This document shows, piece by piece, positions 18,643 through 33,078 of a stretch of 37,746 bases of DNA. Origin of the DNA: Inquilinus limosus MP06. Lineage in GTDB: Bacteria > Pseudomonadota > Alphaproteobacteria > DSM-16000 > Inquilinaceae. Location: assembly GCF_000767795.1 (NCBI RefSeq), contig NZ_JANX01000004.1, forward strand, positions 1 to 37,746, given 5' to 3'. Made by a program: the position numbers and the translations under genes. Every line of letters begins with the position of its first letter. Position 1 is the stretch's first letter. Below the pieces are notes generated by a model. The model worked only from the letters and a program-made list of their open reading frames with translations, had not been told where the DNA came from and made no database searches.

Positions 18643-19365
18643 ATGGTCAACGTCATCTGCGCCAAATGGGGCCCGAAATACGGCCCCGAATACGTCAACC
18701 GGCTGAAGGCGATGGTCAGCCGCAACCTGGCGCGGCCGCACCGCTTTGTCTGCTTCACCGACGACCCGACCGGCCTCGACCCCGATGTCGAGCATTTCCC
18801 GATGCCGGTGCTGCCGGTGCCGGAGCCGCACTGCAACCTGCCCTGGCGCAAGGTGACGCTGTTCGGCCAGCCGCTCGGCGACCTCGAGGGGCCGACGCTG
18901 TTCCTCGACCTCGACATCGTCATCGTCGACAGCCTGGACCCGTTCTTCGACCATCCCGGCCGGTTCTGCGTGATCCACAACTGGACCCACCCGGACCGCC
19001 GCGTCGGCAACACCTCGGTGTACCGCTTCGACATCGGGGCGCATCAAGACGTGCTGGACAACCTGGTCGCCAACCACCGCCAGATCTTCGCCCGGTACCG
19101 CAACTCGCAGACCTATGTCTCCGACCATATCGGCGAGATCACCTGGTGGCCCGAGGCCTGGTGCGTGAGCTTCAAGAAGCACTGCATGCCCGGCGGTCCC
19201 CTCGGCCTGTTCAACTGGTTCATGACCCCGCGCCGGCCGGAGGGATCCCGCATCGTGGTGTTCCACGGCGATCCGAAGCCCGAATACGCGATCAGCGGAC
19301 ACTGGCCCGGGCGCTGGTCGAAGCATGTGCGGCCCACCCCCTGGGTCGCCGAGCATTGGGGCTGA
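18643..19365 (+). CDS. Glycosyltransferase-like protein (DxD, GT-A type)
   Basis: The 240-residue protein starts MVNVICAKWGPKYGPEYVNRL and has a nucleotide-sugar-binding DxD motif in TLFLDLDIVIVDSLDPFF. Late segments include ITWWPEAWCVSFKKHC and IVVFHGDPKP. The layout resembles small GT-A fold enzymes (GT8-like) that transfer a sugar from a nucleotide donor; acceptor and donor are unknown. There is no membrane segment. ATG 18643 gives the natural first beta strand; ATG 18604 is an alternative adding 13 residues. It is divergent from the acyltransferase and runs toward the ELM1-family gene, both on the plus strand. Confidence 0.7.
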   Translation: MVNVICAKWGPKYGPEYVNRLKAMVSRNLARPHRFVCFTDDPTGLDPDVEHFPMPVLPVPEPHCNLPWRKVTLFGQPLGDLEGPTLFLDLDIVIVDSLDPFFDHPGRFCVIHNWTHPDRRVGNTSVYRFDIGAHQDVLDNLVANHRQIFARYRNSQTYVSDHIGEITWWPEAWCVSFKKHCMPGGPLGLFNWFMTPRRPEGSRIVVFHGDPKPEYAISGHWPGRWSKHVRPTPWVAEHWG

Positions 19366-19531
19366 GAGACCATTTGGAACCGGGCCGGCGCGGCCGTCTG
19401 ATCGCGGCTTCTCCGCTTCCGGTGCTCACGGACATCATGTCCGCTGCGCGCCGGTTCTCGAAGCCACCACCAGCCGACTCACGCCACCCCGTTTCCAAAC
19501 GGTCTCTCGGACCGCTCCGGTGCGCGCGGCG

Positions 19532-20539
19532 ATGACCGACCCGATCTCCGCGATCCGCTGCTGGATCGTCAGCGAAAGCAAGGCCGGCACCATCGCCCAG
19601 TGCCGCGGCGTGGCCGAGAAGCTGGGCGTCTCGGCCGAGACGCGCCTGGTGCAGCGGCCGGACCCGGCCAGGCGCGGCCTGGCGCGGCGCCTGAACCGCC
19701 GCTGGACCCATATCCGCAATGTCCATCTGAACCGGATCCGGCCGCCCTGGCCGGAGCTCGCGATCTCCTGCGGCCGGCAGGCGGAGCCGGCGGTGATGGC
19801 CGCGACGCGCCGCTCCGGCGGGTCGATCTTCACGGTGCATCTTCAGGTCCCGACCGTCGGCTTCCACCGGTTCGACCTGTGCTTCGTCGGCCGGCACGAC
19901 TGGCGGCCGGAGTTCGACGGCCGCGACGATGTCCTGCCGATGGTGGGCGCGCCGCATCGCGTCGACACGGCGACGGTGGCCAGCCATCGCGCCGCGGCGG
20001 AGCAGCGCTTCGGCACTCTGCCCGGCCGCCGCGCGGCGGTGATGATCGGCGGGCCGAATCCCGGTTACGGCTATTCGTCGGAGCGCATCGACGCGATCAT
20101 CGCCCAGCTCCGCGGGCTGCAGGCGGAGGGGTGGAGCCTGCTGGTCACGACCTCGCGCCGCTCCGACCCCGCCGTGCTGCCGCGGCTGCAGCAGGCGCTG
20201 GCCGGCGACCGCGGCTTCGTCTGGGACCGGACCGGGGAGAGCCCCTATTTCCAGTACCTGGCGATCGCCGATGCCGTGCTGGTGACGGTGGATTCGATCA
20301 CCATGACCTGCGAGGCGGCCTCGACCGGTCTGCCGGTGTTCTCGATCCCCCTGGACGAGAAACCAGGCCCCTATCTCGACAAGTTCCATCGCTTCCATCG
20401 GGACATGCAGGAGACGCTCGCCGTCACCCGGCCCTTCGCCGGCACGATCGAGCCCTATGCCTACACGCCGCTGGACGAGGCCGGCCGCATCGCCGGGATC
20501 ATTCGCGACCGACTGGCCGCCCGGACGCGGCGTCCCTGA
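19532..20539 (+). CDS. Mitochondrial fission ELM1 family protein (glycosyltransferase-like)
   Basis: The 335-residue protein matches the ELM1 family (PF06258): IRCWIVSESKAGTIAQCRGVAEKLG, LAISCGRQAEPAVMAA, VHLQVPTVGFHRFDLCFVGRHDWRPE, VMIGGPNPGYGYSSERI, LLVTTSRRSDPAV and VLVTVDSITMTCEAASTGLPVFSIPL. Plant ELM1 helps recruit the mitochondrial fission GTPase, but bacteria have no such target. The two-domain layout with a late VTVDSITMTCEAASTG site resembles GT-B glycosyltransferases, and its place in a glycan locus supports a sugar-transfer role (inference). ATG 19532 is used; GTG 19520 is possible. Its stop directly abuts the stop of the convergent gene at 20540. Confidence 0.85.
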   Translation: MTDPISAIRCWIVSESKAGTIAQCRGVAEKLGVSAETRLVQRPDPARRGLARRLNRRWTHIRNVHLNRIRPPWPELAISCGRQAEPAVMAATRRSGGSIFTVHLQVPTVGFHRFDLCFVGRHDWRPEFDGRDDVLPMVGAPHRVDTATVASHRAAAEQRFGTLPGRRAAVMIGGPNPGYGYSSERIDAIIAQLRGLQAEGWSLLVTTSRRSDPAVLPRLQQALAGDRGFVWDRTGESPYFQYLAIADAVLVTVDSITMTCEAASTGLPVFSIPLDEKPGPYLDKFHRFHRDMQETLAVTRPFAGTIEPYAYTPLDEAGRIAGIIRDRLAARTRRP

Positions 20540-21448
20540 TCAGCCCCTCCAGCGGGCCACACGGCGGCGCCAGCGCCGGCGCGCATGATCCAGCTGCTCG
20601 CGCAGCATGCCGCGCGGCGTCACCGCCGCCGGCAGGGTGAAGGGCTCGGCGATCGCCACCGGCACCCGGTCGTGCGGCAGGTCGAGCAGCCGGGCGAAGG
20701 GCTCGCCGGTTGCGATCTCCTCCGCCGTCCACTGGCACCAGGCCAGGCGTTCGAACACCGGTTCGCGCTCCGGATAGGCCGGCCGGTCGACATCGGTGCC
20801 GCGCCGGCACAGCTCGTGGCAGATCAGGGTCGGGCCGCAATAGAAGGCCGGCACGCCGGCGATCAGCCCCTTGATCGCGGCGGTGCTGGTCCAGGTCACG
20901 GTGCACCAGGCGCCGCGCAGCTGGTCCGCCAGCGGCACCGTCGTCTTGCGCGTCCGCCGCAGCACCGGGCGCCGGGTCGGCAGCGTCAGGCTGTAGTCCC
21001 AGCCTTCCGGCATGCGCCGGAAATCCTGCTCCGCCCCCTTCAGCTTCTGGCCGATGACCAGGACATGGTCGCCCCCGCGATTCCAGTCCTGCATCGGCAC
21101 GTCCCAGCCGCGCCATCGCTCCGGGCCGCCGGCGGGGAACCGCCCCTCGCCGTTCCAGCCGTCCAGCGCCACCTGGAAGAAGCGCCACGGGCCGATCGGC
21201 GACAGCCAGCCATTCTCCATCACGATCGCCCGGCCGCCGGCCGCCTTGATCGTGCGCAGCGCCGCCAGGCGGTCGGTGCCCAGGAAGGGCGACCAGCAGA
21301 TCAGCACGTCGTCCGGCCCGGCGTCGCGGTCGGGCATGCCGATCGTGACCGGGCCGAGCCGCCGCGCGCCGGCCGCCACCTCCTCATAGGGCTTGACGTT
21401 GATCTGCCTGGGAGACGGCGGATCGCCAAGGACGATGAAGATGCGCAT
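20540..21448 (-). CDS. Unrecognised GT-B/KpsS-like protein, paralog A
   Basis: The 302-residue soluble protein is the first of three related proteins in this locus. Shared blocks are VLICWSPF (about 48-55), AIVMENGWLSP (74-84), FQVALDGWNGEGRFP, MPEGWDYSLTLPTRRP, TWTSTAAIKGLIAGVPAFYCGP (185-206), YPEREPVFERLAWCQWTAEEIATGEPFARLLDLPHD (225-260). The block with Ser/Thr before a helix and GVPAFYCGP resembles the nucleotide-sugar site of capsule-type transferases (KpsS/KpsC), so a role in adding a sugar such as Kdo is suggested but not proven. ATG 21448 follows a GGGGGGCGG tract. Paralog B ends 16 bp upstream of this start. Confidence 0.6.
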   Translation of the reverse strand: MRIFIVLGDPPSPRQINVKPYEEVAAGARRLGPVTIGMPDRDAGPDDVLICWSPFLGTDRLAALRTIKAAGGRAIVMENGWLSPIGPWRFFQVALDGWNGEGRFPAGGPERWRGWDVPMQDWNRGGDHVLVIGQKLKGAEQDFRRMPEGWDYSLTLPTRRPVLRRTRKTTVPLADQLRGAWCTVTWTSTAAIKGLIAGVPAFYCGPTLICHELCRRGTDVDRPAYPEREPVFERLAWCQWTAEEIATGEPFARLLDLPHDRVPVAIAEPFTLPAAVTPRGMLREQLDHARRRWRRRVARWRG

Positions 21449-21464
21449 ACGGCCGCCCCCCGGT

Positions 21465-22355
21465 TCAGGACATGCCGAGCCGCCGGCGGACCGGATGGCC
21501 CCCGGGCAGGCGGAGGGCGAGGTCGCGGACCCTGCCGAGCAGCGTGAAGTGCGGACGGACCGCCTCGGGCTCCGGCAGCGTCACCGGAGTGCCGTCATGC
21601 GGCAGGTCCAGCAGCCTCGCCAGCGGTTCGCCCGTTGCGATCTCGGCGGCGCTCCACTGGCACCACGCCAGGCGCTCGAACACCGGCTGGCGGTCGGGGT
21701 AGATCGGCGCCTCGACATCCAGGCCGGGCTTGGACAGCTCCGGGCACAGCGTGTTCGGGCCGCAATGGAAGGCCGGGATGCCGGCGACGAGCCCCTTGAT
21801 CGCTGCCGTGCTGGTCCAGGTCACGGTGCACCAGGCGCCGCGCAGATCGTCCTCCAGCGGGCGCGCCGCCCCCGGCATGCGGCGCAGCACCGGCCGCCGG
21901 GTCGGCAGCCGCAGGCTCTGCGCCCATCCCGGCGGCATGCGCCGGGCATCGCCGATCGACTGCGCCTTCTGCCCCAACACCAGGACATGCTCACCCTGCC
22001 GCTGCCAGTCCTGCAGCGGCACACCCCAGGACGCCCAGCGCGACGGCCCGCCCTCGGGGAAGCGGCCGGTGCCGTTCCAGCCGTCGAGTGCGAACTGGAA
22101 GTGGCGGACGCCGCCCGGCGGCGACAGCCAGCCATTCTCCAGGATCACCGCCCGCCCGCCGGCCGCCCGCACGTCGCGATACGCCGCCCAGCGCTTGGAC
22201 AGCCGGAAGGGCGACCAGGTGACCAGGACATCTCCGGGTTCGAACCGCTCCGGACGCTCGGTCGCGGTCGGCCCGAAGCGCTCGCAGGCGGCGATGCACT
22301 CACGCCACGGCTTGCGGTCGCCCTGTGGCAGATAGACGAAGAAGCGAGGCGTCAC
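21465..22355 (-). CDS. Unrecognised GT-B/KpsS-like protein, paralog B
   Basis: The 296-residue protein is similar to paralog A along its whole length: DVLVTWSPF, AVILENGWLSP, FQFALDGWNGTGRFPEGG, MPPGWAQSLRLPTRRPVLRR, the identical GAWCTVTWTSTAAIKGL, GIPAFHCGP, YPDRQPVFERLAWCQWSAAEIATGEPLARLLDLPHD. It differs most at the two ends. It starts with GTG at 22355 with no strong ribosome site. The tandem arrangement with paralog A (16-bp gap) suggests duplication followed by divergence, plausibly with each copy adding a different residue of the same glycan. Function is inference, as for paralog A. Confidence 0.6.
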   Translation of the reverse strand: MTPRFFVYLPQGDRKPWRECIAACERFGPTATERPERFEPGDVLVTWSPFRLSKRWAAYRDVRAAGGRAVILENGWLSPPGGVRHFQFALDGWNGTGRFPEGGPSRWASWGVPLQDWQRQGEHVLVLGQKAQSIGDARRMPPGWAQSLRLPTRRPVLRRMPGAARPLEDDLRGAWCTVTWTSTAAIKGLVAGIPAFHCGPNTLCPELSKPGLDVEAPIYPDRQPVFERLAWCQWSAAEIATGEPLARLLDLPHDGTPVTLPEPEAVRPHFTLLGRVRDLALRLPGGHPVRRRLGMS

Positions 22356-22428
22356 GCCGACTTTACCGGATTGTCATCTTGGCTGTCGGTATCCGACAAC
22401 TCGCCCGCCGGGGCAAGCCCGGCGGCGC

Positions 22429-23400
22429 TCAGGTGCCCGGTCCGGACATGGGGCGGCGGCGGAGCCCGACACCGGTGCGCTCGATCGCGGCCATGACCAG
22501 GGCCCGATGGATCTCGCTGTATTGCGGCCGGCGCGATGGGATCACATGATCCTCGGAATCACCGACATCCGACCGCGGCATGCAGACCGGCGTCCCGTCC
22601 ACCGGGATCAGCCCGGCCTGGCGGGCCACGTCGGCGATGGCGGCGGCATAGCCCCGGGATTCCCTGCATTGCGGATTCAGATAGGGACCGCTGGCATAGA
22701 GGCAGGTCAGGGACTGATCGCGGCAGAAATCGCCGATGCGGCGCAGCGATGCGGCGGCGTCCCGGCGCACCGCGCCGGGCTCGTAGGTTCGCGGATAGAG
22801 CGGTCCGCCGAAGCGGGCCGGATTCTGCGGCACGTAGTCGATCCGGGCGATGGCAGGGTCGATCGGCTCCCCCGTCACCGCGGCCTGCAGCATGCCGGCC
22901 GGGATGTCCCAGGTGGCGAGCGAGGACAGCATCTCCCGCGGCGGCACGTCGGCGAGGTCGCCCAGAGTCTCCGCCGTGTACAGCGCCCCGGGCCAGGACG
23001 GCTTGCGGCGCATCATGTCCAGCGTCTGCATCACCACGACGACGCGCGGCCGGGTCTCGCGCACCGCGCGCCGCAGCATGTTCAGCGTGCCCTCGAAGCC
23101 ATAGGTGCCGACCAGCGGCACCGACACCACCGAGAGGCCGAGCCGGCGGCTCCAGTCGCGGGCGTCGATGGAGTTGCCGAGCGAGCTGTCGCCGACCAGC
23201 AGGATGTCGACCTTGGGCGTGTCGTCGATCTTCTCGATCTGGTAGCGCAGCAGCTCGGATTCCCGCCATTCCGAGAGGCCGTGCCGCATGCCCCACAGCG
23301 ACAGCGCGCAGATCGCGGCCACCAGCGCCACGGCGGCCGCGGCGCCGGTCAGCAGGTAGCGTCGGGCGTCAGAAGCGGAAATAGATGAATTCGGAGACAT
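22429..23400 (-). CDS. Membrane-anchored SGNH/DltD-like protein paired with the MBOAT gene
   Basis: The 323-residue protein has one N-terminal membrane helix (YLLTGAAAAVALVAAICALSLWG) and then a presumably periplasmic domain beginning VDILLVGDSSLGNSIDA. GDS with Ser72 and the following Asn76 resemble blocks I of SGNH hydrolases. The later catalytic Asp-x-x-His is not clear; a GDSEDHVIPS stretch near the C-terminus is the only candidate. Partners of MBOAT acyltransferases are often of this type (DltD, AlgX/AlgJ-like, PatB) and pass the acyl group onto a polysaccharide. Its ATG at 23400 lies 32 bases inside the end of the MBOAT gene, which strongly suggests coupled expression and joint function. 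Confidence 0.7.
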   Translation of the reverse strand: MSPNSSISASDARRYLLTGAAAAVALVAAICALSLWGMRHGLSEWRESELLRYQIEKIDDTPKVDILLVGDSSLGNSIDARDWSRRLGLSVVSVPLVGTYGFEGTLNMLRRAVRETRPRVVVVMQTLDMMRRKPSWPGALYTAETLGDLADVPPREMLSSLATWDIPAGMLQAAVTGEPIDPAIARIDYVPQNPARFGGPLYPRTYEPGAVRRDAAASLRRIGDFCRDQSLTCLYASGPYLNPQCRESRGYAAAIADVARQAGLIPVDGTPVCMPRSDVGDSEDHVIPSRRPQYSEIHRALVMAAIERTGVGLRRRPMSGPGT

Positions 23401-24907
23401 CGTTCAGCTTGAGGATGCAGGCGGCGAGCAGAAGTCCGATGGCGACCGCGGCGAGGGGATGCGGCCGCCAGGCCGCGCCCAGGCGGCCAAACGCCGGCGG
23501 CTCGATCCCGTCGGCATAGCCGCGGGTCGGCAGGCCGACGCCGTAGCGCCGGAACAGCGTCTGGACATTGGGCAGGCTGAGGCACGCCAGCAGCCCGGCA
23601 GCCCCGGCGCCCAGCGACAGCCAGACATTCCAGGCAATGCCCGGATGCAGCGCGCCGAGGATCAGCTCCAGCGTCGCCGACGGTGCATAGTCCAGCGCCG
23701 GCATGTGCAGCTCCCCGGCGAGGCCGAACAGGCCGGCATAGACCCGGCCGGCGGTGGCGATGTCGGCGGCGCGGAACGGCACCCAGGCCAGGATCACCGT
23801 CGCCATGGTGAGGAGCCAGGCCAGGGCGGCCGGCAACGGCAGGTGGAACCGGCTGGACCGCCAGGCCTGGCAGGCCACGATCAGCACCCCGTGCAGCGCC
23901 CCCCACAGGATGAAGGTGAAGCCGGCTCCGTGCCAGATGCCGCCCAGCAGCATGGTGGTGAAGACGTTGAGATAGCGCCGCGCCGGTCCGTGCCGGTTGC
24001 CGCCGAGCGGGATGTAGAGATAGTCGCGCAGGAAGCGCGACAGGGTGATGTGCCAGCGCCGCCAGAACTCGACGATCGACAGCGACCGGTAGGGCGAGGC
24101 GAAGTTGATCGGCATCTGGATGCCGAACATCCGGCCGAGGCCGATCGCCATGTCGGAATAGGCCGAGAAGTCGAAATAGATCTGCAGCGCATAGGCCACC
24201 GCCGCCGCCCAGGCGTCGAACAGCCCGGGCTGCGCCCCCTGCGCCGCGGCGTTGAACACCGGCGAGGCGACCAGCGCGAAGCTGTCGGCGACCAGCACCT
24301 TCTTGGCCAGGCCGATGGTGAAGATCGACAGGCCGAGGGCGAGATCGCCGATCCGGGCCGTCCTGGCCCCGCTGGCGAATTGCGGGATCAGCTCGCGGTG
24401 ATGGACGATCGGCCCGGCGATCAGATGCGGGAAGAAGACGACGAACAGCGCGTAGCGCGGCAGCGGCCAGGGCTCCCCCTCCCCGCGGGCCACGTCGACC
24501 AGATAGGCGATCTGCTGGAAGGTGTAGAAGGAGATGCCGATCGGCAGGGCGATATGGATCGCCATCGCCGGCCAGCCCAGCGTGTCCGCCGCCGTCTGGG
24601 TGACGAAGCCGGTGTATTTGAACACGAACAGGAACAGCAGGTTGCCGGCCACCGCCAGCCGCATCCAGCGCCGGCCGAGCGGCGTCAGGCGGTGGCGATG
24701 GATCACCCCGGCGAGATGGTGGTTGAGCACGATCGCCGCGACCAGCAGCAGCAGCTCGAACCGCGCCGAGGCCCCGTAGAACACCAGCGAGGCGGCCAGC
24801 AGGGCGGCGATGGCCCAGGAAACCCCGGCAAACCGACGCGCCACCGTCCACAGCGCATAGGTCAGCGGCAGGAAGAGAAGAATGAAGATGTATGAATTGA
24901 ACAACAT
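23369..24907 (-). CDS. MBOAT family O-acyltransferase (AlgI/DltB-like)
   Basis: The 512-residue polytopic membrane protein starts MLFNSYIFILLFLPL as AlgI relatives do. The family blocks are present: VFKYTGF, PIGISFYTFQQIAYLVDV, FPHLIAGPIV, IYFDFSAYSDMAIGLGRMFGI, FWRRWHITLSRFLRDYLYIPLGGNR and the catalytic GGIWHGAGFTFILWGALHG, with invariant His326 and His339. Such enzymes move an acyl group (usually acetyl) from cytoplasmic donors across the membrane for O-acylation of exopolysaccharide, peptidoglycan or teichoic acids. ATG 24907 is used; ATG 24940 would add 11 residues. The SGNH-like gene overlapping its end is the likely periplasmic partner, and the neighbouring transferases suggest the acceptor is the locus glycan. 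Confidence 0.93.
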   Translation of the reverse strand: MLFNSYIFILLFLPLTYALWTVARRFAGVSWAIAALLAASLVFYGASARFELLLLVAAIVLNHHLAGVIHRHRLTPLGRRWMRLAVAGNLLFLFVFKYTGFVTQTAADTLGWPAMAIHIALPIGISFYTFQQIAYLVDVARGEGEPWPLPRYALFVVFFPHLIAGPIVHHRELIPQFASGARTARIGDLALGLSIFTIGLAKKVLVADSFALVASPVFNAAAQGAQPGLFDAWAAAVAYALQIYFDFSAYSDMAIGLGRMFGIQMPINFASPYRSLSIVEFWRRWHITLSRFLRDYLYIPLGGNRHGPARRYLNVFTTMLLGGIWHGAGFTFILWGALHGVLIVACQAWRSSRFHLPLPAALAWLLTMATVILAWVPFRAADIATAGRVYAGLFGLAGELHMPALDYAPSATLELILGALHPGIAWNVWLSLGAGAAGLLACLSLPNVQTLFRRYGVGLPTRGYADGIEPPAFGRLGAAWRPHPLAAVAIGLLLAACILKLNDVSEFIYFRF

Positions 24908-25020
24908 GGACGGCAGGAAACCTCGAAGGGCCTGGCTCATCCAATGCTCGGCGAGACGGGCGGCCTGATAACGCGCAGCTGGAATGATTGATCCGCCGGG
25001 ACCGGCGGATTCGCAAGCCC

Positions 25021-25908
25021 CTATCCGATCAGGCGCTGTGCCAGCCTGGCCAGCGGCTTGCGGCCGGCCACGGCGGCCCGCACCCGCCCGGCCATGGTCC
25101 AGGCCGACGGCACCGGATCCGGGTCCAGCAGCAGCTCGGGCCGGCCGTCATGCGGCAGCGACAGCAGCCGCGCGAAAGGCTCGCCGGACCGGATCTCCTC
25201 CTCGGTCCATTGCATCCAGGCATAGCGCTGGAACACCGGCTCGCGGTCCGGATAGATCGGGTTGTCGACGTCGAGGCCGCGCCGCATCAGCTCGCCGCAA
25301 TTGATGTGCGGCCCGCAATAGAAGGCCGGAACCCCGCGGATCAGCGACTTGATCGCGACCGTGCTTGTCCAGGTCAGGGTCGCGAAGGCTTCGTCGAGCT
25401 GGCGCTCCAGCGGCGCCTCGGTGAAGCGCGTCCGCCGTACCACCCTGCGGCCGGTCTGCGGCGCGACGCTCTGCGCCCAGCCCGGCGGCATGGCGCGGGG
25501 ATCGAGATTGATCCCCTTCGGCCGCTGCTCCACCACCAGGATGGTCTCGCCGCTGCGGCGCCAGTCGCGCAGCGGCACGTTCCACGACTCCCATCGGCTG
25601 TCGTCGCCGGCCGGGAAGTCGCCGGTGCCATTCCAGCCATGCAGCGCCAGCTGGAAGTATTTCCGCCCCTGGATCGGCGACAGCCAGCCATTCTCGCCGA
25701 TGATGGCCCGCCCGCCCACCGCTCGGATCTGGCGGTAGATGTCGCTGCGGAAGGTGCCGCGAAACGGCGCCCACAGGATGGCGACATCGTCCGGCTCGAA
25801 CCGGGTCGGCGTGCTCATATGGACGGTGCCGAGGCGTGCCGCGCCCTCGGCGAGCGCCGCCCCGGGCTTGCCGATCGAGACACCCCAGAAGACGAAGATC
25901 CTAGCCAT
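25021..25908 (-). CDS. Unrecognised GT-B/KpsS-like protein, paralog C
   Basis: The 295-residue third copy of the family keeps all the blocks but is more divergent: VAILWAPF, AIIGENGWLSP, FQLALHGWNGTGDFPAG, MPPGWAQSVAPQTGRRVVRR, TLTWTSTVAIKSLIRGVPAFYCGP, YPDREPVFQRYAWMQWTEEEIRSGEPFARLLSLPHD. The constant residues across copies (ENGWLSP, WNG.G.FP, TWTST.AIK.L, PAF.CGP, EPVF.R.AW.QW) mark probable binding or catalytic sites. The gene starts two bases after the stop of the upstream glycosyltransferase-like gene and is separated from paralog B by the MBOAT/SGNH pair. The predicted role is transfer of a sugar to the locus glycan, on fold resemblance only. Confidence 0.6.
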   Translation of the reverse strand: MARIFVFWGVSIGKPGAALAEGAARLGTVHMSTPTRFEPDDVAILWAPFRGTFRSDIYRQIRAVGGRAIIGENGWLSPIQGRKYFQLALHGWNGTGDFPAGDDSRWESWNVPLRDWRRSGETILVVEQRPKGINLDPRAMPPGWAQSVAPQTGRRVVRRTRFTEAPLERQLDEAFATLTWTSTVAIKSLIRGVPAFYCGPHINCGELMRRGLDVDNPIYPDREPVFQRYAWMQWTEEEIRSGEPFARLLSLPHDGRPELLLDPDPVPSAWTMAGRVRAAVAGRKPLARLAQRLIG

Positions 25909-25910
25909 CT

Positions 25911-26843
25911 CTAACCATTCGTGCCGTCGCCGCGGGCCTCGGCATAGATGGCGTGACTCTGATCGAGGTTCAGCGCGTAGGTCGCCTCGAGCGCCGAGGT
26001 CGCGCGGGAGAAGACGACTCCCTCCTTCAGCGCCCCCTTCGCCGACCAGATGAAACTGTCATCGCCGAACGCGACATCGACGACCCCGGCCGGCATGTGC
26101 TGCCACCGGATCCGCCGCTTCAGCCGACGGCGGATGACGTAGAGATAGTAGATCACCGGCTGGTCGACATGGTCGGTGGGCCGCATGTGCAGCGCCCGCC
26201 AGATGGCGTTCGCCAGCTTCTCACAGAAGCCAAGCGCCGCCTTGGAATGGCTGACGCCGACAGCGCCGGCCATCACCCGTCGCCAGACCCTGCGCTCGCC
26301 GAGCCGGAAGTGCAGTGTCACATCGGCGCGCTCGATCATCCTGAACACCTCGTCCAGCGGCCGGCGGACGATGCCGTCGATGTCGACACAGAGGATCGGG
26401 GCCTTGCAGGCCAGCAGCAGGTGATGCAGGACCAGGAACCGTGCTGCCGAGAAATAGACCGGCCCGGGCAGGGAAAGCCGGCGATACGACTCATCCTCCC
26501 AGGTGAAGGACAATCTCACATGATCCAGGGACCGGCGCATGCGGTCGATGTGATCGAGCGTCTCCTGGCAGGGCCCGTACAGATGGATGTGGATGTGGAG
26601 CGGTTCGGCCAGCTTCTCGGCGGACAGCAGGAAGCTCGAGGCGAATTTCCTGTAGTAGCCGTCGTCACAACCGCAGAACAGAACTCCCGGAGTTCCCATG
26701 TCCGGCGTATTGCCACGGATGCTCAGGCGATAATTCTTGACGGCGGATTTCGCGCGGGTGTCAGCCAAATTCTCCAGAAGAACAGAGCAGGACAACCGTC
26801 TCAAGAACCATCGGGACAATCTCTTGAGTGAATGACCGCTCAT
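25911..26843 (-). CDS. Glycosyltransferase-like protein (DxD, GT8-like)
   Basis: The 310-residue protein has the block GVLFCGCDDGYYRKFASSFLLSAEKL, then a DxD motif in PILCVDIDGIVRRPLDEVF, and late residues WQHMPAGVVDVAFGDDSFIWSAKG. This fits a GT-A nucleotide-sugar transferase with the donor bound through metal at the DxD motif. The N-terminal 60 residues are basic and poorly predicted. The start is uncertain: ATG 26843 is used, with an upstream GTG at 26918 in frame. Codon use is less GC-rich in places than in neighbours, as expected for a swapped surface-glycan gene. It is directly followed by paralog C (two-base gap), so both are in one transcript. Confidence 0.6.
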   Translation of the reverse strand: MSGHSLKRLSRWFLRRLSCSVLLENLADTRAKSAVKNYRLSIRGNTPDMGTPGVLFCGCDDGYYRKFASSFLLSAEKLAEPLHIHIHLYGPCQETLDHIDRMRRSLDHVRLSFTWEDESYRRLSLPGPVYFSAARFLVLHHLLLACKAPILCVDIDGIVRRPLDEVFRMIERADVTLHFRLGERRVWRRVMAGAVGVSHSKAALGFCEKLANAIWRALHMRPTDHVDQPVIYYLYVIRRRLKRRIRWQHMPAGVVDVAFGDDSFIWSAKGALKEGVVFSRATSALEATYALNLDQSHAIYAEARGDGTNG

Positions 26844-27092
26844 GACGTCTTGCCCGGACCCCAATTTCTTTGACGCAGCTCGGCGATCGTCTGTCACCTC
26901 CTGCTGCTGGTGCACCACTCACCGGCAGGCTAGCGGCATGAGAAATACCACACTGTGCCCGGTATCACATCCGCTTTGCGGCTCCCGGCCTTTCAGGGGC
27001 CGGACCACCCAGATGTGGCGGAACAGCAGGGCAATATCATGGCACAGCCGCGGCTCCGCAGGGCATGATCGCGGCAGCCTGCGGATCCGGGA

Positions 27093-27965
27093 TCAGCCGG
27101 ATTCGTGCCAGTACGCCTCCCGCCGCTCCAGCACCAGATCGGCCACCCGGCTGCGGCCTTCCTCCTTCCGTCCGCCCTTGAGGTGATCCATGAATCTCCC
27201 GAGACGGGAGTTGATCAGGACATGCGGCACCTTGAGGCCGAGCCCGCCGGCGATGTCGTAGGATCGATGGCCCCGGCGCTCCGTCTGCTTGCGGACGATG
27301 TCGAACAGGTAGGAATCGTGGAACTCGTATTCGCGGAACATCTCGTCGCGGGTGTAGAGCCGCTCGAACTCCGCCAGCATTCCCCGCGTCGCCGGATGCT
27401 TCAGATTGTAGGCGACGAAGCCGCACTCCGAATGAATCCGGCGGCGCAGATAGCCGACGAAACAGTCGGCCGGGACGAACCCCTCGATCTCCTCCCAGCC
27501 GACATCGGCGAAGAAGCGGGTATCGGCGTCGATCCAGATCAGAACGTCGGCATCTGTCGTCGCCGCGGCGTGGAAGATGGCGAAGCTCTTATGCGCGAAT
27601 CGCACCGCGTTCCAGCGATAGCCTTCGCCCCAGCGCTTCTCGCCGAGCTTGAAGCGCATCTTCGCCAGGTCGTAGCTCAGCCGGAAGCGCGGACGCCGCG
27701 TCAGCCCATGGGCCAGCGGATTGTCGGCGTGGCGGCGCTTGAACGCCGCCAGCTCGGGCGAGCTGTCGATCAGATCGCGGGCGACGATCCGGCCCTCGGG
27801 AAGCCGGGGCTCGAAGCCTTCGCAATACAGCAGAAGCGGCACCTCCGCCGGCCAATGTCGATCGAAGCTCTCGACCATGCGCCGCCCATAGGCTTCATAT
27901 CCTGCGGCGCTGCAGGTCGTGACCACGGCGAACCGACGCGCGGGTCCGGCTGGACGAAAATCCAT
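27093..27965 (-). CDS. Glycosyltransferase-like protein (DxD, GT-A type)
   Basis: The 290-residue protein begins with FAVVTTCSAAGYEAYGRRMVESFDRHWP and has DADVLIWIDADTRFFADV, a DxD-type nucleotide-sugar site. It is followed by CFVGYLRRRIHSECGFVAYNLKHPATRGML and EFHDSYLFDIVRKQ. The fold class is GT-A; donor and acceptor are unknown. The start at ATG 27965 gives a natural first strand, and ATG 28004 is an alternative. It shares strand with the rest of the locus. The gaps on either side (249 and 174 bp) hold no visible gene. Confidence 0.6.
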   Translation of the reverse strand: MDFRPAGPARRFAVVTTCSAAGYEAYGRRMVESFDRHWPAEVPLLLYCEGFEPRLPEGRIVARDLIDSSPELAAFKRRHADNPLAHGLTRRPRFRLSYDLAKMRFKLGEKRWGEGYRWNAVRFAHKSFAIFHAAATTDADVLIWIDADTRFFADVGWEEIEGFVPADCFVGYLRRRIHSECGFVAYNLKHPATRGMLAEFERLYTRDEMFREYEFHDSYLFDIVRKQTERRGHRSYDIAGGLGLKVPHVLINSRLGRFMDHLKGGRKEEGRSRVADLVLERREAYWHESG

Positions 27966-28139
27966 GCTTTTGTTCTGAACCTCTCCCCGACCGAGGTGGA
28001 GCATAGCGGGTTCATGGGGCGTCAGCGATTCCAATCTTCCGGCCGGTTTCTTCCGGCATCAAGTCGAGACGGGTGACAATTCAGTATAGCCGCCGTCATC
28101 GCAGCCGGCGGCCCGCGCCGCATCGCCAAGAACGTCGTC

Positions 28140-28904
28140 CTACCGCCGTGGCAGCGCCCCGTCACGCGACGGCCGCGGCGTTTCCAGCACCGCCGCATAG
28201 TCCGCCCGCTCCAGCCCCATCACGGCACCACCGCGGCCGACATTGCGCAGGATCCGGCCATCCGCCTCGAAGGCCTGGCGCAGCACGCCGAACTCCCGCG
28301 CATAGATCTCGTCCTCGGGGCGGGCATATTGATTCGTTTCGGTCTGCCCGGCCGCGTAGAAATAGGTGGTGTCCTGGGAATAATCGAGATCGACGCCGAG
28401 GATATAGGCCTCGGCGAACCCCATGTAGAAGGCGATCTGGGCGGCGAACAGGATCACCGTCGAATCATTGCCCAATCCCTGCCAGGGATGGTGCCGGAAG
28501 CCCTGCTTGCGCAGCCCGCCGCGGTAGCTGGGGAACGTCACCACCCGTTCAGCGGGCGGGCGGAACTCCGGCTTCGCGGCGATGGTGTCGCGCACCAGAT
28601 AGGCCCCGACCGGCAGGGTCGAAACATCGGCCTTGATCCGGTCCCAGCCGCGTAGGTCGCTGAGCACATAATAGGGGATCGGCGCCGGCAGCCCGTGCTC
28701 GAGCGCCTTGTAGCCCTTCTTGACCACGAAGAACTGCTCGCCGGCCAGCTTCGACAGGTCGAAATCGAGCAGCGACGGCGCGTTGCCGAGCAGGAAGCAG
28801 CGCTCGCCGCGATGGCGGTCCTTCAGCGCCATGATCCGGCGCGTGCGGCCCGGCGCGGCCAAAGCCCCGGCCAGGGCATAGCTCTTGGCAAGCAGCGGCA
28901 GCAT
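28140..28904 (-). CDS. DUF115/MptE-like (6-hydroxymethylpterin pyrophosphokinase-like) protein
   Basis: The 254-residue protein has the family N-terminus GERCFLLGNAPSLLDFDLSKLAGEQFFVVKKGYKA, then PYYVLSDLRGWDRIKAD, and GFAEAYILGVDLDYSQD near the middle. This is the DUF115 (MAF_flag10/MptE-like) family. Members occur in motility/flagellin glycosylation and in surface-glycan loci of many bacteria and are presumed to act on nucleotide-linked or sialic-acid-like sugars; the reaction here is unknown. ATG 28904 follows GGGGATCCGGG and lies 10 bp after the stop of the GT4 gene, so the two are probably co-transcribed. Length is that of the single-domain form. Confidence 0.75.
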   Translation of the reverse strand: MLPLLAKSYALAGALAAPGRTRRIMALKDRHRGERCFLLGNAPSLLDFDLSKLAGEQFFVVKKGYKALEHGLPAPIPYYVLSDLRGWDRIKADVSTLPVGAYLVRDTIAAKPEFRPPAERVVTFPSYRGGLRKQGFRHHPWQGLGNDSTVILFAAQIAFYMGFAEAYILGVDLDYSQDTTYFYAAGQTETNQYARPEDEIYAREFGVLRQAFEADGRILRNVGRGGAVMGLERADYAAVLETPRPSRDGALPRR

Positions 28905-28914
28905 CCCGGATCCC

Positions 28915-30150
28915 CTAGCCCGCCGGCGTGCCCAGCAGTTCCCGGTACACCACCAGGGTCGAGCCGGTCATCGCCTCCTTGGTGTAATGCGCCGCGACCG
29001 TGGCGATCGCGCGCTCCGCCATCCATTCCCGCGCCTCGGGCGTCAGCGACAGCGCCCGGTCGATGGCGGCGGCCAGCGCGTCGGCATCGCCCGGCGGCAC
29101 CAGCCAGCCGGTCTCGCCCTCGGCCACCACCTCGGGCGGGGCGCCGATATTGGTCGCGATCACCGGCCGCCCCAGCGCCATCGCCTCCACCACCACCCGA
29201 CCGAAGCCCTCGGGGTCGGTCGAGGCATGCACCACCACGTCGGACAGCATGTAGGCGGCCGGCATGTCGTCGCAGTGATCGACCAGATGCACCACCCCCG
29301 CCAGCCCCTTGGCCGCGATCCGGTCGATCAGCTCCTGCCGGTAGCCGCTGCGGCCCTGGTCGCTGCCGACGATCAGGCAGCACAGATCCTGCCGGCCGAG
29401 CCGGGCCAGGGCGTCGATCACCACGGTCTGGCCCTTCCAGCGGGTCAGGCGCCCGGGCATCAGCACCACCGGCCGGTCGTCCGGAACGCGCCAGGCACGG
29501 GCCAGCGCGATCATCCGCTCGGCCGAGACCGCCTCGATCGCGAATTGCCGCAGGTCGACGCCGCGCGGGATCGTGCGGACCCGCGCCGGGTCGGCGCCGC
29601 AGCCGTCGATGATGTAGCGGGCGACGTAGTCGGAGATGGCGATCACCCGGTCACCGCGCCCCATGATCGAGTTGTACAGCCGCTTGGCCGTGCTGCGCTG
29701 GTTGTAGGGCGCGTGCACGGTGGTGACGAACGGAATGCCGGCGCGCCGGCAGGCGGCATGCGCGCTCCAGGCCGGGGCGCGGCTGCGGGCATGCACAAGG
29801 TCGATGCCGCGGTCGCGGATCAGGGCCTCGAGCCGGCGCGCATTGCGCCAGATGGTGACCGGGTTCTTGCCGGCGAGCGGCAGGGTGACGTGCTCCGCCC
29901 CTGTCCGCGCCAGGTCGCGCAGCATGGCGCCACCGGCCGAGGCGACCAGCGCCTTGCCTCCGGCCGCCTCGATCGCCGCGGCGACATCGACGCAGCCGCG
30001 CTCCGCCCCGCCGGTGCCGAGGGCCGGCAGCACCTGCAGGATGGTGCGTCCGCGCAGGTCGACCAGGTCGATCGGCAGCGCGTCGGTCTCGGGCGGAAGA
30101 TAATGCGTGGTCACGAGCAGCGAGTGTACCGGACGGATCGGGGCGCGCAC
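28915..30150 (-). CDS. Glycosyltransferase family 4 (GT-B) protein
   Basis: The 411-residue enzyme has the GT4 layout: N-domain TILQVLPALGTGGAERGCVDVAAAI, hinge IAISDYVARYII, the donor-binding domain with MPGRLTRWKGQTVVIDALARL, LVDHCDDMPAAYMLSDVVVHAST and the nucleotide-sugar motif EGFGRVVVEAMALGRPVIATNIGAPPEVV. This retaining transferase moves a sugar from a nucleotide donor to a lipid or glycan. The start is unsure: GTG 30150 gives the longest form and GTG 30114 is an alternative; neither has a clear ribosome site. The frameshifted DDAH-like gene ends 39 bp upstream. It appears to head the minus-strand glycan unit with the DUF115 gene. Confidence 0.9.
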   Translation of the reverse strand: MRAPIRPVHSLLVTTHYLPPETDALPIDLVDLRGRTILQVLPALGTGGAERGCVDVAAAIEAAGGKALVASAGGAMLRDLARTGAEHVTLPLAGKNPVTIWRNARRLEALIRDRGIDLVHARSRAPAWSAHAACRRAGIPFVTTVHAPYNQRSTAKRLYNSIMGRGDRVIAISDYVARYIIDGCGADPARVRTIPRGVDLRQFAIEAVSAERMIALARAWRVPDDRPVVLMPGRLTRWKGQTVVIDALARLGRQDLCCLIVGSDQGRSGYRQELIDRIAAKGLAGVVHLVDHCDDMPAAYMLSDVVVHASTDPEGFGRVVVEAMALGRPVIATNIGAPPEVVAEGETGWLVPPGDADALAAAIDRALSLTPEAREWMAERAIATVAAHYTKEAMTGSTLVVYRELLGTPAG

Positions 30151-30189: not shown

Positions 30190-30973
30190 TCAGGCAGGAT
30201 TGCCCCAGCGCAGCGACATGCAGGACAGCCCGGCATCGAGCTTGCCGGTCTCCGCGACCTGCAGCGGCACCACGCGGTAGCCGAGCCGGTCGAGCGCCTC
30301 GGCGGTGCGGGGGAAGGCGGCGCCGACCAGGACGACGTCGTTGACCCGCAGTGCGTTGGCCGCGGCCTCCTCCCCCTCCGGCACGCGCACCACGCGCATG
30401 CCGGGGAAGAAGCCGGCCAGGGCCTCCGTCGCCAGCACCGATTCGCTGTCGAGCAGCGAGCAGGCGGTCTTGAAATGCAGCACGCCGGGCGGCGGCGTCA
30501 CGATCTCCGCCTTGCGGCCCAGCTCGGCCAGCAGCGCCGCCAGCGCCCCGGCGCCGCGGGCATCGGTGCGGGCGGACAGGCCGATCATCACGGCGCGCGG
30601 CGTCACCAGCACGTCGCCGCCCTCGGCGAAGCCGGCCTCCATCGCCAGCACCCGCTCGAACCGGGCGACCAGGGCGGGGGCGAGCTCCGCCGCCTCACCC
30701 AGCCGCGACGGCGCCCCGGGGCGCAGCAGGATGGCGCCTTCGGGGAAGGGTCAGCGCCGGGTCCTCGAGGAAGACGGAATCGGGGAAAGCCTCGAGCGGC
30801 GGCAGCACCTCGACCGCCACGCCCGCCTGCTCCAGCGCCGCGACATAGGCAGCATGCTCGGCCCGGAACCGGGTCATGTCCGGGGCACCCCGGTCGACGG
30901 CCCGCAACCCGTCCACCGCGGACCCGGCGGGCTGGCGCGCCAAGGCACGATCGAACCGGAACACCTCGGCCAT
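30190..30973 (-). pseudogene. Dimethylarginine dimethylaminohydrolase (DDAH)-family gene broken by a frameshift
   Basis: Two frames together spell a complete DDAH-type hydrolase. The N-terminal part (FRFDRALARQPAGSAVDGLRAVDRGAPD, ending EDPALTLP) is in one frame. The rest (PEGAILLRPGAPSRLGEAAELAP, GGDVLVTPRAVMIGLSARTD, VLHFKTACSLLD with the catalytic His, and AGLSCMSLRW with the catalytic Cys) is in another. The join is at about 30741-30750, where the minus strand reads ACCCTTCCCCGAAGG, one base longer than expected for the family. Because the change lies in a C run, a sequencing error is possible; otherwise the gene is inactive. DDAH enzymes hydrolyse methylated arginines to citrulline. Confidence 0.85.
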
Positions 30974-31617: not shown

Positions 31618-33078
31618 CTACAGCACGAAGTCGCTCGCGGAGAGCGCGTGAACGCCGGAGAGGCGGATCTGCATGTCGGCCGCGCCGTCCCCGTTGACGT
31701 CGACGAAGATGCCGGTCTGGAAGCCGGCGGTGACGGCCCGGACCTGGCCCGCGACGTGGCTGAAAGCCTCCGAGCCGATGAAGGTTCCGCCGCTGACGAT
31801 CGCCGACAGGTCGATGTGATCACCCGTCGCGAAATCGGTGATCAGATCGGCCTTGGCATAGCCGACGCCGCTGTCGGCCGCCGCGGAGAAGACGAAATTG
31901 TCGGCCCCGGCGCCGCCGGTCAGCGTGTCGGCCCCGGCGCCGCCGTTCAGCGTGTCGGCCCCGGCGCCGCCGAACAGCTGGTCCTTGCCGGCCCCGCCGC
32001 TCAGGGTGTCGTCGCCGGTCCAGCCCGACAGCAGGTTGTCGGCGCCGTCGCCGATCATCGTGTCGTTGAAGGCGCTGCCGGCGAAGTACTCGATGCCGGA
32101 ATAGGTGTCGCCGGCCGCGTCGCCGGTGTTCGCCGAGACGTCGGTCAGGTTGACCGTCACGCCGGCGAGCGCATCGTCATAATAGGCGGTGTCGGCGCCG
32201 CCGGCACCGCCGGTCAGCGTGTCGGCCCCGGCGCCGCCGACCAGGCGGTCATTGCCGTCGCCGCCGTCGATGGTGTCGTCCCCGGCCTCGCCGAACAATG
32301 CATCGGCCCCGGCGCCGCCGGCGATGGTGTCGTTGCCGCCTTCGCCGGAGATCAGGTTGGCACCGGTGCTGCCGGTCAGGTCATCGCCGAACGCGCTGCC
32401 GCGGATCCATTCGAAGCCGGTGATGGTGTCGCCGGCCGCGTCACCGCCGCTGACGGCGTTGGTCTCGATATTGACCGTCACCCCGCTGCCGGAGGTGAAG
32501 TAGTCGACCATATCCGTGCCCGCGCCGCCGTCCAGATTGTCGGCACCGGCTCCACCGCGGAGCGTGTCATGACCTGCTCCGCCGAGAAGGATGTCGTTGC
32601 CGCCCTGGCCGTCCAGCGTGTCGTCGCCGCCCTGGCCGTTCAGGGTGTTGGCCGCGGCGCTGCCGCTGAGGGTGTCGTTGCCGGTGTCGGAGCCGAGCAG
32701 GTTGACGATGCCGACCAGCCAGTCGCCCTGGGCGTCGCCGCCGAAGCCCTGCGAAGCGCCGGTGAGCTGGATGTTGATGCCCAGGATCGGCAGGGTCAGG
32801 CTGAGGATCACCGACAGGTCGACGGTGACGCCGTCGACGGAGGTCGTATAGTCCGCCGCATCGATGCCGGAGAGGGTGATGACGCCGGCCGCGTTCAGCA
32901 GGCCGCCGATGATCACATCCGCGCCCGCGCCGCCGCTGATCACATCGTCGCCGGACCAGCCGATGGCAATGTCATCACCGCCCAAGGCGTTGACCGTATC
33001 GTTACCGAGGGCTTGGACTGGACCGATAATAAGATTCGGCAGGATTTCGGCGCCATTGGTGCCTGTAAAAGTGGCCAT
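31618..33078 (-). CDS. RTX calcium-binding protein, probably secreted by a type I system
   Basis: The 486-residue protein has no N-terminal signal peptide (MATFTGTNGAEILPNL). It is made mainly of glycine/aspartate nonapeptides of the RTX type (GGxGxDxxx), in several blocks such as GGAGADTLNGGAGADTLTGGAGADNF. Each block can bind Ca2+ and fold as a parallel beta roll outside the cell. Between blocks lie repeated spacers with VTVNLTDVSANTGDAAGDT and VTVNIETNAVSGGDAAGDT. The C-terminus has an M10-type secretion domain (ADLITDFATGDHIDLSAIV) and a terminal acidic/hydrophobic tail (SASDFVL), the usual uncleaved type I signal. There is no catalytic domain, so a structural, adhesive or S-layer-like role is likely but unproven. 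GGAG precedes ATG 33078. No type I exporter gene is in this window. Confidence 0.93.
   Translation of the reverse strand: MATFTGTNGAEILPNLIIGPVQALGNDTVNALGGDDIAIGWSGDDVISGGAGADVIIGGLLNAAGVITLSGIDAADYTTSVDGVTVDLSVILSLTLPILGINIQLTGASQGFGGDAQGDWLVGIVNLLGSDTGNDTLSGSAAANTLNGQGGDDTLDGQGGNDILLGGAGHDTLRGGAGADNLDGGAGTDMVDYFTSGSGVTVNIETNAVSGGDAAGDTITGFEWIRGSAFGDDLTGSTGANLISGEGGNDTIAGGAGADALFGEAGDDTIDGGDGNDRLVGGAGADTLTGGAGGADTAYYDDALAGVTVNLTDVSANTGDAAGDTYSGIEYFAGSAFNDTMIGDGADNLLSGWTGDDTLSGGAGKDQLFGGAGADTLNGGAGADTLTGGAGADNFVFSAAADSGVGYAKADLITDFATGDHIDLSAIVSGGTFIGSEAFSHVAGQVRAVTAGFQTGIFVDVNGDGAADMQIRLSGVHALSASDFVL

Follow-up and report, generated by a model that had tools for sequence, protein, structure and literature searches.

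The three related proteins A, B and C of Inquilinus limosus MP06 are, on the evidence below, probably cytosolic glycosyltransferases that have the two-domain KpsC/WbbB fold and belong to a chromosomal surface-glycan cluster; relatives of the same family recur in phages. The window (the whole stretch of DNA analysed, 37,746 nucleotides) is contig C4 of a 6.9 Mb genome, and its cluster is syntenic with Inquilinus limosus records. The genes are:

18666..19535, plus strand: AKWG protein, whose phage relatives match a PHROG glycosyltransferase family
19325..20539, plus strand: ELM1-family GT-B-like protein (PF06258, E 7.2e-83)
20540..21448, minus strand: A, P1-type KpsC-fold putative glycosyltransferase, 302 aa
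21465..22355, minus strand: B, P1-type paralogue, 296 aa, 16 bases before A
22429..23400, minus strand: putative SGNH-like protein (GDS-type motif by eye), absent from L007
23369..24940, minus strand: MBOAT O-acyltransferase (PF03062, E 5.8e-31), absent from L007
25021..25908, minus strand: C, P1-type paralogue, 295 aa, the copy chosen for the structure model
25911..26918, minus strand: putative GT-A-like transferase (by eye), conserved in Inquilinus
27093..28034, minus strand: g27093, putative GT-A transferase with invariant D146-x-D148
28140..28904, minus strand: MptE-like (DUF115) protein (PF01973 sub-threshold, 17.8 bits versus a cut-off of 34.6)
28915..30150, minus strand: GT4 glycosyltransferase (sequence match to PDB 7mi0, E 2.6e-74)

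Transcription on the minus strand runs in the order GT4, MptE-like, g27093, the putative transferase at 25911-26918, C, MBOAT, SGNH-like, B and A, with the ELM1 and AKWG genes on the plus strand past A. The arrangement is most simply read as several glycosyltransferases grouped in one cluster. The first-pass annotation had already placed the trio among sugar transferases, which stands for the ELM1 protein and, by PDB matches, for the GT4 protein, while its DUF115 label reaches only sub-threshold scores. The acylation pair that it proposed likewise holds for the MBOAT half (161 bits against the NCBIfam DltB-like family, under the cut-off of 375), the SGNH label having been given by eye to a gene that matched nothing in Pfam and nothing convincingly in the PDB. 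No family was found in Pfam or NCBIfam for the gene at 25911-26918, and the AKWG protein had no Pfam match, its phage representative (L167) matching phrog_1962 (E 7.2e-23); g27093 yielded a structure model with pLDDT 89.9, and its relatives gave chance-level matches only against PDB sequences. Among the neighbours of the cluster are genes for threonyl-tRNA synthetase and a protein resembling lipid A acyltransferases, and blast-based labelling marked none of the window's ORFs as a virion gene, so the cluster is not a recognisable prophage. Also on the minus strand of the window are a 486-aa protein rich in GGxGxDxL repeats, RTX calcium-binding-like by eye (31618-33078), and a dimethylargininase-like gene (by eye, 30190-30973), apparently split into ORFs 30190-30651 and 30695-30973. 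Outside the cluster, the same genome holds a single GTA78 homologue (46%, contig C310) and a second g27093 (67%, contig C609); among 289 class genomes, g27093 was found in this genome and as two marginal matches (E ~9e-4).

The ORFs of A, B and C were recovered where the first-pass annotation had drawn them, all on the minus strand, and the blocks that it listed (ENGWLSP, WNG.G.FP, TWTST.AIK, PAF.CGP and EPVF.R.AW.QW) are visible in the alignment, B reading QPVF. Pairwise identity among the three is 52-61%, and their local alignment scores (883, 771 and 767) far exceed 75, the highest score among 200 shuffles per pair, so the similarity is not due to chance. Comparisons between Inquilinus genomes gave dN/dS values of 0.019 and 0.027 for A (two comparisons), 0.048 for B (one) and 0.029 and 0.044 for C (two), a range of 0.019-0.048 over five comparisons that indicates strong purifying selection, the ratios being rough because dS exceeded 1 in each comparison. 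Exactly three copies were present in all six Inquilinus genomes searched, and the protein family was present in two of 11 genera searched within the taxonomic family; an order-level search gave the same 17 genomes as the family-level search. Within the six-genome Inquilinus synteny set (the window, L004, L005 with L008 as pieces of one MAG, L006, L007 and L235), the MBOAT and SGNH-like genes are missing from L007 alone, where B comes directly after C; the link to O-acylation drawn from the first reading is thus not obligatory. L006, titled Mycobacterium sp. KBS0706, shows the full Inquilinus cluster synteny at ~82-93% protein identity and is probably a mislabelled Inquilinus genome. When genome contigs were scanned with peptide patterns drawn from A, B and C themselves, every match was to Inquilinus (in one record under a Mycobacterium title); because of the origin of the patterns, this says little about distant cellular relatives. 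A plasmid search with C gave no match, and two weak matches from the class survey were left out of the family, one (G384) sitting in a stretch with five stops and the other (G169) being LpxK-like by eye.

The family had been called unrecognised from the letters alone, and none of the HMM libraries tried (Pfam and NCBIfam among them) gave a match above cut-off that would name A, B or C. Pfam Capsule_synth (PF05159) was absent from the matches of A, B and C at E up to 1 and reached at best E = 0.068, below the gathering cut-off, in three of the eight members of alignment A2; DUF6716 (PF20471), a putative glycosyltransferase family, showed sub-threshold likeness over a 40-residue C-terminal stretch (11.5 bits for A and 13.9 bits for C versus a cut-off of 27, B not being listed). 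A three-row profile (A1) found no PDB sequence, and the deeper A4 profile had KpsC as its best match among PDB sequences (E 2.6e-5). The structure model of C (pLDDT 92, pTM 0.87) places KpsC, WbbB and KrkA at the top of its fold matches, clear of the next group, with an rmsd of ~4 A and 12-14% identity to KpsC/WbbB-type structures (VIA-align). The predicted model of C thus shows a KpsC/WbbB-type GT-B fold for the trio, and the mismatch to any glycosyltransferase fold that could have undone the first-pass proposal did not occur. Among nine remote genome matches that were scanned, six were Capsule_synth above cut-off.

Searching with C by tblastn recovered 14 phage records, all Caulobacter jumbo phages (E 2e-16), two further records matching relatives, and both tblastn and the tree described below join the trio to the phage P1 proteins, which are themselves related to a second type, P2 (hhalign 99.9%). 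Two viral_contigs scans, with 80 of 88 and 80 of 177 confirmed places kept, were included; 172 loci with a member hold 387 family members above 25 bits, and joining at >= 90% member identity left 112 groups, or 111 excluding Inquilinus (106 viral_contigs, two Caulobacter phages and three bacterial genomes). Across these 111 loci a cassette recurs that contains genes for P2 (89 loci), P1 (82), GTA78 (78), an MptE-like protein (68), g27093 (37), a GT9-like protein (32), a methyltransferase (32) and AKWG (17). Of the 82 loci with P1, 57 have an MptE-like gene that starts no more than 1.5 kb upstream of it, and in 54 a P2 gene comes shortly after it. Neither Pfam nor PHROG had a family for the key cassette proteins. 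Phage contigs L147-L149 and L177 carry five or six family members in tandem, together with GTA78 and g27093-type genes, and the gene before P1 in CcrBL9 (L009:11292-11888) matches PHROG 4603 'alpha-2;3-sialyltransferase', with PF01973 MptE-like below cut-off.

Virion genes of at least one type were present in 61 of the 111 loci and of at least two types in 52, and they flank the P genes on both sides in 25; since the stretches stop at contig ends or at the flank, more distant virion genes are missed by these counts. Phage gene labels came from single-linkage clusters, those for portal, capsid (two types), head-tail adaptor, head closure, tail tube, GT9 and methyltransferases being checked on one representative each and those for terminase, protease, tape-measure and two gp10-like proteins assigned by eye. 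Outside Inquilinus, P1 occurs in three cellular genomes, adjoining portal, capsid and head-tail genes in one (G379) and tape-measure, distal tail and tail fibre genes in another (G392), whose order is repeated in the third (G148). P2-type genes were found in three further cellular genomes (G540, G433 and G161), and the stretches fetched from the first two carried no virion label. Co-occurrence with unrelated pathways, which the first-pass annotation took as evidence against itself, is therefore partly true: relatives do sit in phage head-tail modules, yet together with GT9-like, methyltransferase, MptE-like and other transferase-like genes. The trio's cluster is not placed among virion genes. 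No description of a P1/P2 cassette was found in the available sections of the literature searched (including PMC10783043 and PMC3556154; subscription papers lay mostly outside it).

Its position inside a structural operon points to late expression of the cassette, and from this arrangement of genes we consider that it probably decorates virion proteins rather than altering the host surface or modifying DNA; DNA glucosylation in particular is less likely given that position. By extension, A, B and C could glycosylate protein (flagellin or another surface protein) instead of a lipid-linked or envelope glycan, much as their phage relatives may modify virion proteins. The siting of phage cassettes among virion protein genes favours this, as does the MptE-like neighbour common to the bacterial and phage settings (20-21% identity, E 0.002, between the window protein and that of phage contig L030), in a family, PF01973, that takes in the flagellin-modifying Maf proteins. 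We nonetheless find protein glycosylation doubtful, because the nearby MBOAT and lipid A acyltransferase-like genes point to an envelope glycan and no acceptor protein gene was recognised within the cluster.

A tree of 95 rows (12 Inquilinus, 72 phage P1, three cellular P1 and eight of the 21 P2; quick method, SH-aLRT only) united the Inquilinus rows in one clade (99) that grouped with phages L027, L029 and L030 (98). Tail tube and tape-measure genes follow the cassette in these three contigs (tail tube, PF06199, tested in L028, a near-copy of L029; L027 and L030 of similar order by eye). The family probably came from phages; the phage-to-host direction is one that we infer, from a sample weighted towards viruses (106 of the 111 loci being from the viral collection). 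Transfer of the whole cluster as a block from one phage is not supported, as the g27093 tree does not place Inquilinus beside L027, L029 and L030.

KpsC catalysis, in the sections available of PMC10148158, uses a Glu base, the Asp of QXXXD as nucleophile and the His of HP, the latter two motifs being key conserved elements there and in the available sections of PMC12887879. The Glu is retained: Glu72 of ENG, which the profile match aligns with EDG of KpsC and hence with the N-terminal-domain base Glu66, is present in alignment A4 in 12/12 Inquilinus and 72/72 phage P1 rows (Asp in 20/21 P2 rows), and Arg159 and Ser182 are equally invariant in Inquilinus and phage P1. The Asp at Q+4 is found in 0/12 Inquilinus and 0/72 phage P1 rows (0/84 P1-type rows; 1/21 P2), and HP in 0/12 Inquilinus, 69/72 phage P1 and 1/21 P2 rows, with KP in 19/21 P2. 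The KpsS/KpsC-type site suggested by the first-pass annotation is thus borne out by profile and fold and falls short in its catalytic set. HP is missing from three phage P1 rows, L027, L029 and L030, which form the sister group of Inquilinus; its loss is therefore ancient within the subclade rather than the decay of a single genome. The motif pair defined for GT38/52/80 sialyltransferases, D/E-D/E-G and HP (available part of PMC2169525), is not seen in the window copies, which read ENG and have no HP. Loss of both KpsC features could mean changed or lost activity; given the strong selection on the trio, a changed mechanism and donor would fit better than loss of function. The missing QXXXD aspartate makes direct (inverting) transfer likelier than a sugar-enzyme adduct, and, with HP, the motif that binds CMP in beta-Kdo transferases, absent as well, a CMP-ulosonate is an improbable donor for the window's clade.

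It could be argued that A, B and C are true KpsC/KpsS-like transferases of a CMP-ulosonate (Kdo, Pse or related) that kept the donor and use other residues. CMP-Kdo enzymes are their best fold and profile matches, and Asp136, a few residues after Gln128 and present in 12/12 Inquilinus and 7/72 phage P1 rows, might replace the nucleophile; moreover, one NeuB-family and two CTP_transf_3 genes lie on contigs C474, C209 and C633 of the same genome, so CMP-sugar donors may exist there. We consider this unlikely because both key KpsC elements are lacking in the Inquilinus copies and no CMP-sugar synthesis gene was recognised within the window. That the trio are non-catalytic relics or scaffolds retaining the fold, as the missing HP and QXXXD Asp might hint, is very improbable given strong purifying selection on all three copies, full retention of Glu72, Arg159 and Ser182, and three copies in every Inquilinus genome searched.

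If A, B and C are instead glycosyltransferases of a surface glycan, as we favour, Glu72 would act as base in each copy, and the nucleotide sugar would be bound in the C-terminal domain, which carries the invariant Arg159 and Ser182; transfer would be direct and inverting, from a donor that is probably non-CMP in the window's clade. Duplication within the Inquilinus lineage gave rise to the three copies, which would probably attach different sugars or linkages one after another to a single surface glycan, with GT4, the putative GT-A at 27093 and their neighbours acting alongside; where present, the MBOAT and SGNH-like proteins may then acylate the product. More tentatively, the whole may represent a new GT family with a KpsC fold and an inverting, nucleophile-free site, ancestrally part of a virion-decorating cassette (MptE-like, P1, P2, methyltransferase, GT9-like and putative GT-A) in a head-tail operon, from which Inquilinus might have captured and triplicated a member for its own surface glycan.

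Among known systems, the KpsC modules, WbbB (GT99) and KrkA (GT140) are retaining beta-Kdo transferases, a set spanning GT99, GT107 and GT140, that share the trio's fold, but the P1-type rows lack the QXXXD Asp, the Inquilinus clade also lacks HP, identity is 10-14% and the trio stays under the Capsule_synth cut-off. The Caulobacter jumbo phages CcrColossus (gp127/gp128) and CcrBL9 (gp175/gp176) carry the same family as tandem P1-P2 pairs adjoining other transferase-like genes (gp127/gp175 at ~30% identity); unlike the trio, these proteins are encoded in phage genomes, with tail fibre genes on one side and lysis genes on the other, retain HP or KP and are annotated as hypothetical. In mycobacteriophages, phage-coded glycosyltransferases act on capsid and tail subunits (available sections of PMC12619734); the likeness would lie in phage-coded glycosyltransferases.

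These observations tie an unclassified bacterial trio to a recurrent phage gene cassette and extend the KpsC/WbbB fold to proteins that lack the aspartate central to its known mechanism. Should virion glycosylation prove to be its role, the cassette would stand beside the mycobacteriophage case, as described in the available sections of PMC12619734, as a further route whose enzyme set is open to testing, and would be a case of phage-host exchange of glycan machinery.
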